Assembly (NCBI GenBank): GCA_947176965.1
Contig: CAMWSU010000001.1
Location: forward strand, 1-64,000
Reading direction: 5' to 3'
Length of the DNA stretch: 64,000 nt
DNA from: an uncultured Lachnospiraceae bacterium
GTDB lineage: Bacteria > Bacillota > Clostridia > Lachnospirales > Lachnospiraceae
The notes below the pieces were generated by a model. It searched no databases. It saw only the letters and a list, made by a program, of their open reading frames with translations, and was not told where the DNA came from. The position numbers and the translations under genes are program-made. Shown piece by piece: positions 1-42,859 of the stretch. Each line of letters opens with the position of its first letter. The first letter of the stretch is position 1.

Positions 1-273
1 TAAATTACTCGCTGAATTACCGAATAAGCATTTGTTACCTATCAACCCCTAATAATCAGGAATTATCCTCCATCTATGTATTTTTACATTATACCTCATT
101 TACATCCGTAACTCAACTACTTTTTGAAATTTTTGCAAAATAATCAGTTGCTTCTTAATAATAAATTTGATATTAGACGCAATTATATGATTGACCTTTA
201 CACTATGCTTAATTTGTGCCAAAATAATAGGTAATTACATAATGGAAAATCACCCCACGAAAGGAGTCCCACT

Positions 274-4742: not shown

Positions 4743-5522
4743 ATGAATATCAAAATGATTTTGACAGATCTTGATCATACGCTGCTTCGTTCGGATGGCA
4801 GCATATCAGAGTATACAAAGCAGATTTTGAAGGAATGTCAGAAGCGCGGGATTCTGGTTGTGATTGCTACTGCGCGATATTGGATAGGGGCAGAACGTTA
4901 CATAGAGGAAATGCAGCCGGACTATGAAATCACAACAGATGGAACGCTGATTCATCAGCGCGGGAAGCAAATTTATAGCTGCAGCATGGATCATAATGAT
5001 GCGAATCAGATCATACAGGATTTGCTGGAAAAGAATCCAAATACAGAAATCACTGTGGCAGCAGGTCGCCAGGTTTTTTGGAACAGTCATCATATAGCAG
5101 AATCCGAAAAATTGCATAAAGCAGTTTTTCATGATTATCGTGAGCCTTTGCGTTGTCAAATAAATAAAATTGTAGCAGAGCTTTCTGACGGTGATATGGC
5201 TGCAGAGATTGCAAAAAAGAATCACTGTCGTCTGCAAGGCTATCGGGGAGAGAATTGGTATGCGTTCCTACCGGAAACGGCGGGCAAGATACAGGCAATT
5301 CACGAATTGGCCAAGTCGTTGAACATCTCTCTAAGTGAGATTGTATCTTTTGGCGATGATACAAATGATATGGAAATGCTCCAAATCTGCGGCATAGGAG
5401 TTGCTGTTTCCAATGCTGTGACGGAGGTTAAGGCTGCTGCGGATTGTGTCACATCATCGAATGATGAGGATGGCGTGGCAGATTGGATTGAAAAAAATAT
5501 ACTCACGGATGGGAATAAATAA
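4743..5522 (+). CDS. Cof-type HAD-IIB family hydrolase
   Basis: ILTDLDHTLL, FGDDTNDMEML motif, ~259 aa. Confidence 0.88.
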   Translation: MNIKMILTDLDHTLLRSDGSISEYTKQILKECQKRGILVVIATARYWIGAERYIEEMQPDYEITTDGTLIHQRGKQIYSCSMDHNDANQIIQDLLEKNPNTEITVAAGRQVFWNSHHIAESEKLHKAVFHDYREPLRCQINKIVAELSDGDMAAEIAKKNHCRLQGYRGENWYAFLPETAGKIQAIHELAKSLNISLSEIVSFGDDTNDMEMLQICGIGVAVSNAVTEVKAAADCVTSSNDEDGVADWIEKNILTDGNK

Positions 5523-5525
5523 TCA

Positions 5526-5582
5526 AATGCCCAAATTCGCAAAGCGAACTTGTTCGCTTTGGCGTTGGCAGCATGGAGGATT
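5526..5582 (+). repeat. Start-adjacent dispersed structured repeat, copy 1
   Basis: CCCAAATTCGCAAAGCGAACTTGTTCGCTTTGGCGTTGGCAGCATGGAGGATT; hairpin CAAAGCGAA-CTTG-TTCGCTTTG; ends in SD 4 nt before ATG 5586; similar copies at 7771, 32551 and 42790. Confidence 0.85.
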
Positions 5583-5585
5583 AGA

Positions 5586-6020
5586 ATGATAAAACAGGCA
5601 GAACAAACAGATGCGTTAACCTTGGCAAAATTGGCGATACAAATGTGGGATGACACTACATTATCTGAATTGGAGTCCGGTTTTGTGGAAATGCTTAGCG
5701 GCGAAAATGCGGCTTGCTTTATTTGGTATGAGGAGGACGAGCCGATCGGATTTGCGCAGTGTCAGCTCAGGCATGATTATGTCGAGGGCACGGAGACATC
5801 ACCGGTTGGCTATTTGGAAGGAATCTTCATCCAAGAAGAATTTCGGCATAGAGGATTTGCAAGGATGTTGTTGCAGGAATGCGAAAAGTGGGCAAAAGGA
5901 AAGCATTGTTCCGAATTCGCAAGCGATTGTGAATTAGACAATATGAATAGTCTCAAATTTCATTTGGCGATGGGGTTTGAGGAAGCCAATCGCGTTATTT
6001 GTTTTCGAAAAAATATTTGA
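5586..6020 (+). CDS. Aminoglycoside 6'-N-acetyltransferase-like GNAT
   Basis: RHDYVEGTETSPVGYLEGIFIQEEFRHRGFARMLLQECEKWAKGKHCSEFASDCELDN resembles the chromosomal AAC(6')-I family signature as recalled. Confidence 0.7.
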   Translation: MIKQAEQTDALTLAKLAIQMWDDTTLSELESGFVEMLSGENAACFIWYEEDEPIGFAQCQLRHDYVEGTETSPVGYLEGIFIQEEFRHRGFARMLLQECEKWAKGKHCSEFASDCELDNMNSLKFHLAMGFEEANRVICFRKNI

Positions 6021-6161
6021 GTAAATACAAATGGTGTGGGATCAACGGATGCAGGGCGAATGCAGCAAGGATGAACGAATCAAGAATCAATGTATGCAAT
6101 AAGAACGCATCAAAGAGTATTGCGTTGGAACACGCAAACGAATGAGAGGATAGGAAAAATG

Positions 6162-6361
6162 GAAAAGCGGAAAATGAGGACATTGCCGGAAAATTGCGGA
6201 CAGCTTTTGCAGAGTGGATCGATAACGGACACAACAATTTTGAAGATGAAAACACAGTCATCCTGTGTGTGCGGCTGACGGATGGTGTTCTTTTTTCACA
6301 GGGAGTAAGATACGACATGGATTTCACCCGAATTTCAATTGTATATAATGAAAGACTGTAG
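6162..6361 (+). pseudogene. Orphan coding remnant without start codon
   Basis: Open frame after TGA reads GKAENEDIAGKLRTAFAEWIDNGHNNFEDENTVILCVRLTDGVLFSQGVRYDMDFTRISIVYNERL*, protein-like but no plausible start. Confidence 0.4.
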
Positions 6362-6385
6362 AAGACTAAAAAACGATGAAAATAG

Positions 6386-6712
6386 CCGATTGTCTTTGAA
6401 CTGGAACCTGAATAGGGAGATTTCTAAGTTAAATTATAGGATACATACGGATGCAATTAAAGAAAATTTAATACCACCTGAATTAACGTCCGCGCAAATC
6501 GCCTATACCTATGCAAATGAAGCAGATATGCTGAATGTGGTTTTGTTTGGAATGACAGCAAGGCAATGGAAAGTTACAGCGCTGTTTTAATTCATCAGGG
6601 AAAGAATCAAAAAGAGCGGATGGAATTACTTCGGCAGTTAGCGGTACAGCAGTTACAGACATTGGAAGCGATAAGTTTACACAATTTTTCGAGATTGGAG
6701 GAAAACCATGAT
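6386..6712 (+). pseudogene. Remnant of a phage/KilA-N-associated type protein, internally deleted
   Basis: LNREISKLNYRIHTDAIKENLIPPELTSAQIAYTYANEADMLNVVLFGMTARQW in one frame, then MESYSAVLIHQGKNQKERMELLRQLAVQQLQTLEAISLHNFSRLEE in another; switch at CAATGGAAAG. Confidence 0.6.
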
Positions 6713-7229: not shown

Positions 7230-7775
7230 ATGAAAAGATGCAGATTATCCTATGATGAATGGAAATGCATTCTGTCGAAAGAGATGATCGGAAAAAGAGT
7301 AACGGGGGACTTCTTTGAGGGATATCTCGGTATGATCGACATTCGGCAGGTAAGTGAAGCTCAGAAATGGGGCGTCGATGGGAAAGCGACCGTGATCTGC
7401 GACCGAGGCATCAAATGGCTGTCCATTTTGCCGCAGAATGATTTTTATTGTATCACTGCCATGATGAATGAAAAAAATGATATCTTGGTATGGTATATTG
7501 ATATGATCGCGGGACAGGGAACGGATGCGGACGGTATGCCGTGGTTTGATGATCTGTATTTAGATTTGATCGTTTCTCCGAATGGCAGTATCAAAGTGGA
7601 TGACATGGATGAACTGGGGGAAGCGCTGCGTCAAAAAGACATCACGCAGGAGCAATTCGATCTTGCGCTCCATACAGCCGATCAGTTGAAAAAAGGATTG
7701 TTAAAGGACATCCATTCTTTTATGGACTATACATATGCATGCTATGAGCTCCTATGCAAAGAGGAAACAGATTGA
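7230..7775 (+). CDS. DUF402 domain-containing protein
   Basis: WYIDMIAGQGTDADGMPWFDDLYLDLIVSPNGSIKVDDMDEL is DUF402-like; AAGGAGG RBS. Confidence 0.65.
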   Translation: MKRCRLSYDEWKCILSKEMIGKRVTGDFFEGYLGMIDIRQVSEAQKWGVDGKATVICDRGIKWLSILPQNDFYCITAMMNEKNDILVWYIDMIAGQGTDADGMPWFDDLYLDLIVSPNGSIKVDDMDELGEALRQKDITQEQFDLALHTADQLKKGLLKDIHSFMDYTYACYELLCKEETD

Positions 7776-7866
7776 AAAAACAAAGATTTTTCAAAAACGA
7801 ACAAGTTTGCTTTGCAGATTTGTGCGGACGCACAAATTCGCGGGCTGTTGGCAGCATGCAGGATTC
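7771..7866 (+). repeat. Start-adjacent dispersed structured repeat, copy 2
   Basis: GATTGAAAAAACAAAGATTTTTCAAAAACGAACAAGTTTGCTTTGC...GCACAAATTCGCGGGCTGTTGGCAGCATGCAGGATT; near-identical to 32551-32647; overlaps the DUF402 stop codon. Confidence 0.85.
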
Positions 7867-7884
7867 GCTTGAAAGGGAAAAGAA

Positions 7885-8484
7885 ATGGACATGGGATTTC
7901 AGATCATAGCGATCGTGATATTACTCGCTTTTTACGGATGCTATTTTACAAAAATGATATTGCAGAGAAAAAAGGGCATACAGACCAATCAGATGGGAAA
8001 AGGGAAGACGGGGCTTGTGAAGCGTATTGAGATTACAATGAAGATCGCGTCACTTCTCGTCCCTGCGGCGGAGTTTGTTAGTATTGTTTTGGACACATCG
8101 CCCCTGCCGCTATGGGCAAGAATAGCGGGCGCGTTTGTGGGAAGCTGCGGAGTGGTTGTTTTCATTTTCGCGGTGGTGACGATGCGGGACAGTTGGCGTG
8201 CAGGTGTTTCGGAGACGGAGCGCACGGAGCTTGTCACGATCGGTATTTATCAGATCAGCCGCAATCCCGCGTTCCTTGGCTTTGACCTTGTTTACATAGG
8301 GATTGTGCTGATGTTTTTTAACTGGGTTCTGCTTGCAGTATCGGCATTTGCAGGTCTGATGTTCCATTTGCAGATCGTGAATGTGGAGGAAGATTTTCTC
8401 GCTCGGACATTTGGGGAAGCCTATCTGGATTACAGAAAAAAGGTGAATCGATATTTGGGGAGAAAGATTGGAGGAGCAACATGA
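7885..8484 (+). CDS. Isoprenylcysteine carboxylmethyltransferase (ICMT)-like membrane protein
   Basis: Several TM stretches, GIYQISRNPAFLGFDLVYIG, VEEDFLARTFGEAYLDYRKKVNRYLG. Confidence 0.8.
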   Translation: MDMGFQIIAIVILLAFYGCYFTKMILQRKKGIQTNQMGKGKTGLVKRIEITMKIASLLVPAAEFVSIVLDTSPLPLWARIAGAFVGSCGVVVFIFAVVTMRDSWRAGVSETERTELVTIGIYQISRNPAFLGFDLVYIGIVLMFFNWVLLAVSAFAGLMFHLQIVNVEEDFLARTFGEAYLDYRKKVNRYLGRKIGGAT

Positions 8485-32467: not shown

Positions 32468-32550
32468 TAAAGACGTCCGCCGGCATGGTGGAAAGTGCAG
32501 GCTGTTAAGGGGCGGAGTTGTCGGCACGACGTGCTTAGGGAGAGGAAATA

Positions 32551-32647
32551 GATTGAAAAATCAGAGATTTTTCAAAAACGAACTAGTTCGTTTTGCAAAT
32601 ATTGTGCTTACGCCCAAATTCGCGGGCTGTTGGAAGCATGGAGGATT
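32551..32647 (+). repeat. Start-adjacent dispersed structured repeat, copy 3
   Basis: GATTGAAAAATCAGAGATTTTTCAAAAACGAACTAGTTCGTTTTGC...GCCCAAATTCGCGGGCTGTTGGAAGCATGGAGGATT; SD 6 nt before ATG 32651. Confidence 0.85.
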
Positions 32648-32650
32648 TTC

Positions 32651-33916
32651 ATGACGAAACTGCGGTATTGGTTTTTCTGTTATCTGGCAGTCATGCTTTT
32701 GCTTTTACTGTTCATCGGATACGGTTTTGAGAGAACGGACGCGGAAGGCAGAGACATGGTTTTTTATCATGAGCAGCGCATATTGGTACAGCAGGCGCTG
32801 CAGCGGGGGGAGAACCGGGAGCGCGTGGAACGGGAATACGGCTGCCGGATTCTTCTTTTTTCGGACGAGGATTATGAGATCGCGCTTGGCGGGGCGTATC
32901 AAAATGAGGCGCTCATCATGGATCTGATATGGGAACGAGAGCCGGAGACAGCCCGGCAGGACGGGGGAGCGGCCGGCAAGATCGTTTGGAATGTGTCCGA
33001 ACAACGTTATCGGAGCATGGAGCGGGTATTATACAGGCGCATGCTGATCATGTGGGGGATTGTGCTGGCTGGCGGTCTGTTGTTGTTCGGCTTTTTTTAT
33101 GTACGCTTTATCCGTCCGTTTACACAACTGCAGACATTTGCGAGGCAGATCGCAAAGGGAAATCTCGATTTTCCGCTGCCGATGCGGAAGCGTCAGTATT
33201 TCGGCGCATTTACGGAAAGCTTCGACCTGATGCGCGAGGAGTTGAAGCGGGCGAAGGAGAGCGAGTATCAGGCGAACCGCAGTAAAAGGGAGCTGGTCGC
33301 GGAGCTGTCGCATGATATCAAGACGCCGATCGCCACGATCCGGGCAACCTGTGAGGTGTTACAGGTCAAGGAACAGAATCCTGATACAAAGGCAAAGGTT
33401 GCCGTCATTCATGCGAAGGCGGGCATGGTGGATGCGCTGGCGAACAATCTGTTTCAGGCAAGCTTAGAGGAGCTGGAGGTCCTGAAAGTGGAACCGGCGG
33501 AGGAGCAGTCCCCGTGTATTCGCGGGATGTTTGAGGAATTAAAGGATTACAGCGAGATCCATATAGAGGGGGATGTGCCGCATTGCCTTGTGTGGATGGA
33601 CAAGCTTCGCCTGCGTCAGGTCATTGACAATGTGGTCAGCAATTCATGGAAATATGCGGGTACGCCTGTGACGGTTACTTTTTTTGAGACGGATCAAAGC
33701 CTCGGGATTCGGATCCGGGACGAGGGTACGGGCGTGGAGACGGACGAGCTTGTCCTGCTCGGCGAGAAATTTTACCGGGGAAGCAACGCGAAGGGAAAGA
33801 GCGGTTCGGGACTCGGGCTGTATCTGGCCAAGCTGTTTATGGAGCGGATGTACGGCGGTATTCAGTTTTGGCAGGAGGGAGGCTTTGTTGTGGAGCTTTC
33901 CCTGAAAAAAGTGTAA
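32651..33916 (+). CDS. Sensor histidine kinase
   Basis: Two TM segments, HAMP-like, AELSHDIKTPIATIRATCEV, DNVVSNSWKYA, GSGLGLYLAKLFME. Confidence 0.92.
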   Translation: MTKLRYWFFCYLAVMLLLLLFIGYGFERTDAEGRDMVFYHEQRILVQQALQRGENRERVEREYGCRILLFSDEDYEIALGGAYQNEALIMDLIWEREPETARQDGGAAGKIVWNVSEQRYRSMERVLYRRMLIMWGIVLAGGLLLFGFFYVRFIRPFTQLQTFARQIAKGNLDFPLPMRKRQYFGAFTESFDLMREELKRAKESEYQANRSKRELVAELSHDIKTPIATIRATCEVLQVKEQNPDTKAKVAVIHAKAGMVDALANNLFQASLEELEVLKVEPAEEQSPCIRGMFEELKDYSEIHIEGDVPHCLVWMDKLRLRQVIDNVVSNSWKYAGTPVTVTFFETDQSLGIRIRDEGTGVETDELVLLGEKFYRGSNAKGKSGSGLGLYLAKLFMERMYGGIQFWQEGGFVVELSLKKV

Positions 33917-42685: not shown

Positions 42686-42687
<2 letters not shown>

Positions 42688-42781
42688 TGTGAGAAGAACT
42701 TCTAACGCTCATGCCAATGGGCATTTCGCGTAGAAGTTCTATGTCTCACACTGAAGAATACCCAAAATGCGGGTATTCTTC
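42686..42781 (+). repeat. Stop-adjacent double-hairpin unit (long nested hairpin plus GAAGAATACCC/GGGTATTCTTC)
   Basis: AGTGTGAGA-AGAACTTCT..ATGCC/GGCAT..AGAAGTTCT-ATG-TCTCACACT, then GAAGAATACCC-AAAATGC-GGGTATTCTTC. Confidence 0.75.
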
Positions 42782-42789
42782 TCATTATA

Positions 42790-42853
42790 AATTTGTGCTG
42801 ACACCCAAATTTGCAAAGCGAACTTGTTCGCTTTGGTGTTGGCAGCATGGAGG
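42790..42853 (+). repeat. Start-adjacent dispersed structured repeat, copy 4
   Basis: AATTTGTGCTGACACCCAAATTTGCAAAGCGAACTTGTTCGCTTTGGTGTTGGCAGCATGGAGG; SD 6 nt before ATG 42860. Confidence 0.85.
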
Positions 42854-42859
42854 TGTTAT

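Follow-up and report, generated by a model that had tools for sequence, protein, structure and literature searches.

A family of short repeats found directly before start codons in Lachnospiraceae very probably consists of mobile elements that target a Shine-Dalgarno (SD)-like sequence and carry a replacement SD. The copies were studied in a window of 64,000 nucleotides (the whole stretch of DNA analysed, from an uncultured Lachnospiraceae bacterium), in the 3.40-Mb genome to which it belongs (the source genome) and in other genomes. In the reading favoured here, the repeat belongs to a family of mobile elements of Lachnospiraceae that are small and structured and encode at most a uORF. Their insertion has a fixed orientation and takes place at a TA that follows an SD-like purine run by a few bases, usually between the SD and the start codon of a gene. 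The left terminus of an element is a hairpin beginning at the TA, and its right terminus, GCATGGAGGATTA, is the same kind of motif (SD plus TTA) as the left flank. Insertion moves the native SD to a distance of 80-170 nt from the start, and the GGAGG of the element, 6 nt from the ATG, would take over. Because of this takeover, the element could spread through operons at low cost, apparently without gene shut-off; its right end is itself a new target and gives rise to nested chains. The initial annotation of the window had already proposed a mobile element placing an SD before existing genes, and empty orthologous sites, start adjacency found with an SD-free model and a patchy distribution argue for it.

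The elements are about 80-170 bp long. TA is followed by a 5' hairpin (TTGAAAAATC..GATTTTTCAA and variants), an optional AAAGCGAACAAGTTCGCTTT hairpin, the core TGCTGACGCCC..GGGCTGTTGGCA, the right end GCATGGAGGATTA and NNATG; printed contexts of the full unit read, in order, TA, GATTGAAAAATCAAAGATTTTTCAATC, GGCGAATTTGTGCTGACGCCCAAATTCGC, GGGCTG TTGGCA, GCATGGAGGATTA, NN and ATG. The optional second palindrome, AAAGCGAACAAGTTCGCTTT, stands either 5' of the core or inside it. What the copies have in common, namely the 5' hairpin and a 41-nt core, extends far beyond the 15-base TTGGCAGCATGGAGG. Compensatory changes, on both sides of the stem, occur at three outer pairs of the 5' hairpin; the pairs were counted by script, and the MAFFT alignment misplaced the outer ones. 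The core stem looks re-paired in other genera (CTGTC/GACAG, CTGCC/GGCAG), and within the covariance-model training set it is highly conserved and covariation is uninformative. Most of the folds tested exceeded dinucleotide shuffles in stability (z -1.2 to -9.4).

A riboswitch-like cis-regulatory RNA leader, vertically retained before related genes, would also be structured, show compensatory changes and lie always upstream in gene orientation. Such a leader is hardly credible and already contradicted: orthologous sites are empty, the downstream genes are unrelated (in the window, by Pfam), and inner hairpins have been exchanged at the same gene between species. No Rfam covariance model matches over the element at the gathering threshold or at E<=0.5. 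The SD is not specially hidden either, with a median unpaired probability of 0.53 for element SDs versus 0.41 for ordinary GGAGG..ATG sites, and a regulatory hairpin sequestering the SD, as had been suggested, was rejected on these values.

A second subfamily joins the same 5' hairpins to the core GTGCCTGCGGCATAGCGTATTTCATACGCATTCAAGTTTGCAGG and the right end GAGAAAGGCATGGTTATTNNTATG (L285-L289, L291, L296 and L297 in the source genome; L143, L145 and L147 in genome G107). In the source genome it ends in GAAAGGCATGGTTATTNNTATG / GAAAGGCATGGTTATT and is start-adjacent too; its candidate SD, AGAAAGG, corresponds to the 5' portion of an extended SD and lies 13 nt from the ATG.

The repeat is widely dispersed. 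The 15-mer TTGGCAGCATGGAGG, with <=2 mismatches, gave 50 matches in the whole 3.40-Mb genome versus 6 for the reversed control pattern. A covariance-model search, proposed in the initial annotation, was run with a model of 41 positions built without the SD (R1), which returned 35 matches at E<=1 in the source genome, 28 of them at E<0.01. Sampling 150 genera of the family gave R1 matches in only 5, weak in one of them; four congeners hold 27, 11, 17 and 1, Parablautia muri 92, P. intestinalis 46 and bacterium C-53 33. In the GTDB set, 37 stretches contain the exact right-end 20-mer (Lachnospiraceae, Parablautia muri, P. intestinalis, bacterium C-53, Anaerocolumna and an unclassified Bacillota MAG). 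On the chromid NC_012780.1 of [Eubacterium] eligens ATCC 27750, a well-known cultured species, queE and folE are separated by a relative of the element that sits exactly at their junction (L299 601-672) and would be a convenient test case. A phage or plasmid vehicle was considered and rejected: IMG/VR viral contigs contained no exact match to the pattern, a single partial phage match covered 39 nt, and the E. eligens copies stand before folE on the chromid.

Within the window alone, TTGGCAGCATGGAGG gave 8 matches with <=3 mismatches against a shuffle mean of 2.3, a modest excess, since 8 was reached in 1 of 100 shuffles. The motif is exact at 5565 and 42839 and has one mismatch at 7848 (GCAGG) and 32630 (GGAAG). 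The features concerned are collected in Table 1.

Table 1. Copies of the element, their ribosome-binding sites and an associated gene in the window
Feature	Position	Strand	Evidence
Left-truncated copy in the gap between HAD hydrolase and AAC(6')-like GNAT genes	5530-5583	+	core remnant, palindrome, right end
Palindrome AAAGCGAACTTGTTCGCTTT in truncated copy	5541-5560	+	
Right end TTGGCAGCATGGAGGATTA of truncated copy	5565-5583	+	
GGAGG SD in right end of truncated copy, 6 nt 5' of ATG 5586	5575-5579	+	
GNAT, AAC(6') group E equivalog, downstream of truncated copy	5586-6020	+	NF043067
Copy with both hairpins and broken SD (GCAGG), 5' of gene 7885	7770-7867	+	site empty in G152; model match 7816-7856
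Native SD AGGGAGAGG before copy of gene 32651	32537-32545	+	
Copy between native SD and ATG 32651 (histidine kinase)	32551-32646	+	empty site in G152; Pfam HisKA/HATPase_c
Own SD GGAGG of copy before ATG 32651	32640-32644	+	
Long copy (extra hairpins) before ATG 42860 (FtsX-type permease)	42687-42856	+	orthologous sites in G150-G153; Pfam
Own SD GGAGG of copy before ATG 42860	42849-42853	+	

The junction between the HAD and GNAT genes had drawn attention as a repeat in its entirety. The quoted repeat sequence is present, at 5530-5585, and the ATG starts at 5586, but the element proper is longer than supposed: this copy is truncated on the left, the one before 32651 measures about 96 bp and the one before 42860 about 170 bp. 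From the HAD stop codon (TAA, 5520-5522), the junction runs through CCCAAATTCGC, AAAGCGAACTTGTTCGCTTT, GGCG and TTGGCAGCATGGAGGATTAGA to the ATG. The gene was correctly recognised as AAC(6')-like, as it scores 198.7 bits against the group E equivalog model NF043067, with a cut-off of 140. The GGAGG lies within the truncated copy, which is the only source of an SD before ATG 5586. The sole ortholog found for this junction, in G152, reads AATCAAATCCCAATTGAAGGAGGATTAGAATG there and retains GGAGGATTAGAATG, the sequence before it being 34 bp shorter; AATCAAATCCCAATTGAAGGAGGATTAGAATG may be either a shorter remnant of the element or an ancestral leader. With the same GGAGGATTAGAATG behind a possible shorter remnant in G152, the SD at 5586 may have been installed by the element or may be ancestral. 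On the 3' side of the acetyltransferase gene, window positions 6020-6708 contain short ORFs only (the longest on the + strand has 83 aa) and may hold decayed gene remnants.

The other copies in the window can be compared with empty sites. At 32651, the empty junction TTAGGGAGAGGAAATTTCATG in G152 corresponds to the filled TTAGGGAGAGGAAATA-element-TTTCATG. The copy before 42860 is inserted at the TA of the stop codon of the upstream ABC-ATPase gene, between a native GGGGTGG and the ATG; G151 and G152 have no insertion here, G150 holds the same element and G153 carries two tandem elements with another core. To judge from these alignments, both 32651 and 42860 received a clean insertion in the gap that separates the native SD from the ATG. 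At 7885, where a variant end (GCAGG) had been noted 18 nt before the ATG, the native SD AAAGGG (7872-7877) lies between element and ATG, and the copy, with its own SD broken and 5' of the native one, does not serve this gene. The tandem elements of G153 (L236) have a third core type, ..GAGTCAGAGC..GCTCTGACATGGAGGATTA, and point to a wider superfamily with the common right end CATGGAGGATTA. Larger hairpins, GTGTGAGAAGAACTTCTAACGC..GCGTAGAAGTTCTATGTCTCACAC, are either added to the 5' side of the element as further modules or stand next to it as units of their own (window 42687-42788; source genome C1:127577, downstream of L102).

The comparison of orthologous junctions that had been called for was carried out by presence or absence between species, the junctions being located in relatives with flank-only queries and then aligned. 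It revealed empty sites in congeners, often in two of them. Clean or nearly clean empty sites were obtained for L098, L103, L105 (window 32651), L106, L108, L112 (window 42860), L113, L116, L117 and L121, and about ten copies of the source genome have TA at both element ends. For example, an empty GATGGGGAATAGGGAG contrasts with the filled GATGGGGAATA-element-TAGGGAG, and an empty GGAAGGACATACGATG with GGAGGGACATA-element-TATGATG. Insertion is scar-free at TA, with TA at both boundaries in the clearest cases, and mostly occurs 2-8 nt 3' of the native SD. Insertions held in common with relatives may differ in their inner hairpins (L192, L193, L262). Among 75 distinct left ends, 63 are preceded by TA, 60 by an SD-like purine run within <=14 nt and 53 by G at -7. 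A separate set gave SD-like runs before 39 of 52 insertions against a background of 26%. Since most sites already had an SD-like run and insertion takes place just 3' of it, the element substitutes an SD and does not create one, which modifies the earlier idea that it installs this signal. Nested copies sit directly behind the GGAGGAT(TA) of another copy. Before a murB-like gene (C86:5967, L120 of the source genome), and also at L196 and L197, congeners retain ATGGAGGATA(A/G) before the start, the remainder of the repeat having decayed, as if an old insertion had left the SD alone.

Start adjacency was quantified by counting ORF starts (ORFs of >=60 codons) at each position 3' of the SD-free model; a version with a 13-nt window had a background of 21%. 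An ORF begins exactly at +12 nt in 26 of 77 copies, where the background is 1.4% per position (P~1e-28); the range +10..14 takes in 40 of the 77. Inspection of 60 copies in P. muri found 38 to be start-adjacent, and several others precede another element. None of these figures is corrected for shared ancestry. Together with the genome-wide matches, these counts agree with the initial annotation in describing a dispersed, start-adjacent repeat, and neither of the outcomes it had named as refuting (copies unrelated to start codons, or a universal vertical leader) was found. The integrity of the SD follows start adjacency: copies with the broken right end GGATG are start-adjacent in 0 of 8 cases versus 36 of 53 for GGAG(G) (Fisher P=3.7e-4, for a class defined post hoc and uncorrected for ancestry).

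This dependence indicates that selection does act, and purifying selection could in principle account for the placement as well. The element would then be an ordinary TA-inserting MITE without SD preference, of which mainly copies with an SD end before a start codon are kept. Such an origin is doubtful, although a hairpin element rich in A and T with TA at both ends fits it. A copy inserted 5' of a native SD or into long intergenic DNA would do no harm, and many such copies would be expected, yet 60 of the 75 left ends adjoin an SD-like run. Moreover, such runs are also found before insertions that have no start codon after them, as at L103 (GGGGAA^TA) and at L113 (GAGGAAT^TA, in the 3' end of a gene); the insertion at L098, not start-adjacent either, is without an SD-like run. 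Terminal inverted repeats are also missing. These sites suggest that target recognition, beyond selection alone, causes the placement. A stronger form of the SD-targeting reading has about an even chance of being right: the SD itself would be the target site and the right end an obligatory copy of it, so that the transposition signal would at the same time preserve translation, every insertion would make a fresh target, and an undescribed transposase or recombinase would read the SD.

The SD of the element presumably drives translation of the gene in vivo. In a quite improbable, MIRU-like alternative, the native SD would start a uORF at the TTG or GTG of the element, and ribosomes finishing this uORF would reinitiate at the gene. 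The native SD does lie a few nt 5' of that TTG/GTG in many copies, and most of 55 uORFs reach or pass the gene start, several of them with an ATGA overlap. However, a substantial minority end inside the element, left ends of the type AAAGCGAAC.. have no start codon there, and SD integrity follows start adjacency. The frame from the 5' TTG/GTG to the gene is 0, 1 or 2 in 26, 14 and 15 of the 55 copies, so that neither a conserved in-frame leader peptide nor the in-frame reading first noticed in the window holds as a conserved property.

Mobilisation is probably brought about by an enzyme, although searches found none. Three wider-spaced pairs of left and right ends, inspected by eye for an autonomous long copy, had no transposase-like ORF between them. 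Palindromic elements derived from IS200/IS605 depend on a Y1 transposase and have subterminal hairpins, a left target motif with a similar right-end motif, orientation-specific insertion and no terminal inverted repeats. The present family resembles them in that an SD-like run plus TA flanks it at the left, its right end is GGAGGATTA and its left end is a hairpin. However, a Y1 (HUH) transposase is absent from the source genome, G150, G152 and G107, though copies are numerous there, and was rejected as mobiliser; it is present in G024, G127, G151 and G153. The SD-like target is also unlike the known 4-5 nt targets of IS200/IS605 elements. With MITEs of DDE (IS630/Tc1-type) elements the family has in common TA at both ends, or a TA target duplication (empty versus filled sites; 63 of 75 left ends). 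Terminal inverted repeats are not found, only TA matching between the left end TAGATTGAAAAATC and the reverse complement of the right end, TAATCCTCCATGCTGCC. The DDE family searched, the TA-targeting IS630-type DDE_3, is absent from the source genome and four congeners and was set aside as mobiliser; it is present in two Parablautia.

Literature searches, covering open-licence papers, yielded no description of this family. The mycobacterial interspersed repetitive units (MIRUs) are its nearest known kind and the only comparable precedent found. A review describes them as short, apparently mobile repeats whose insertions lie at start codons and point in the direction of the gene, which stays translated through a repeat ORF coupled to it at a -4 nt overlap (PMC12548453). 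The Lachnospiraceae element is likewise a short, dispersed start-codon repeat in gene orientation with the gene apparently kept translated. Compared by description, it differs in its position at TA after an SD, its replacement SD, its unfixed uORF frame and its chain of hairpins, and a minority of the 55 copies end as ATGA. The BOX, RUP and SPRITE repeats of Streptococcus pneumoniae resemble it in being small interspersed repeats built of modules and rich in hairpins, in which insertions are nested and inner modules exchanged; BOX and RUP have terminal inverted repeats, and none of the three is described as lying in the gap from SD to start codon or as supplying an SD (PMC3049150). The TAACTGA repeats of marine Beggiatoaceae are also dispersed just 5' of start codons, mostly in gene orientation. 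In contrast to the present elements, these heptamer direct repeats have little SD character, overlap the expected SD position and are no structured SD-carrying insertions (PMC4679880).

The SD is an abundant and nearly invariant motif in a Bacillota genome, and these elements would use it both as landing site and as passenger. An element that targets it would offer selfish DNA a route into operons at low cost. In Lachnospiraceae it would account for a class of orphan leaders with hairpins that can be mistaken for riboswitches, and it predicts that many genes of this family are translated from transplanted ribosome-binding sites. The elements may also be regarded as compact natural translation-initiation cassettes for testing.
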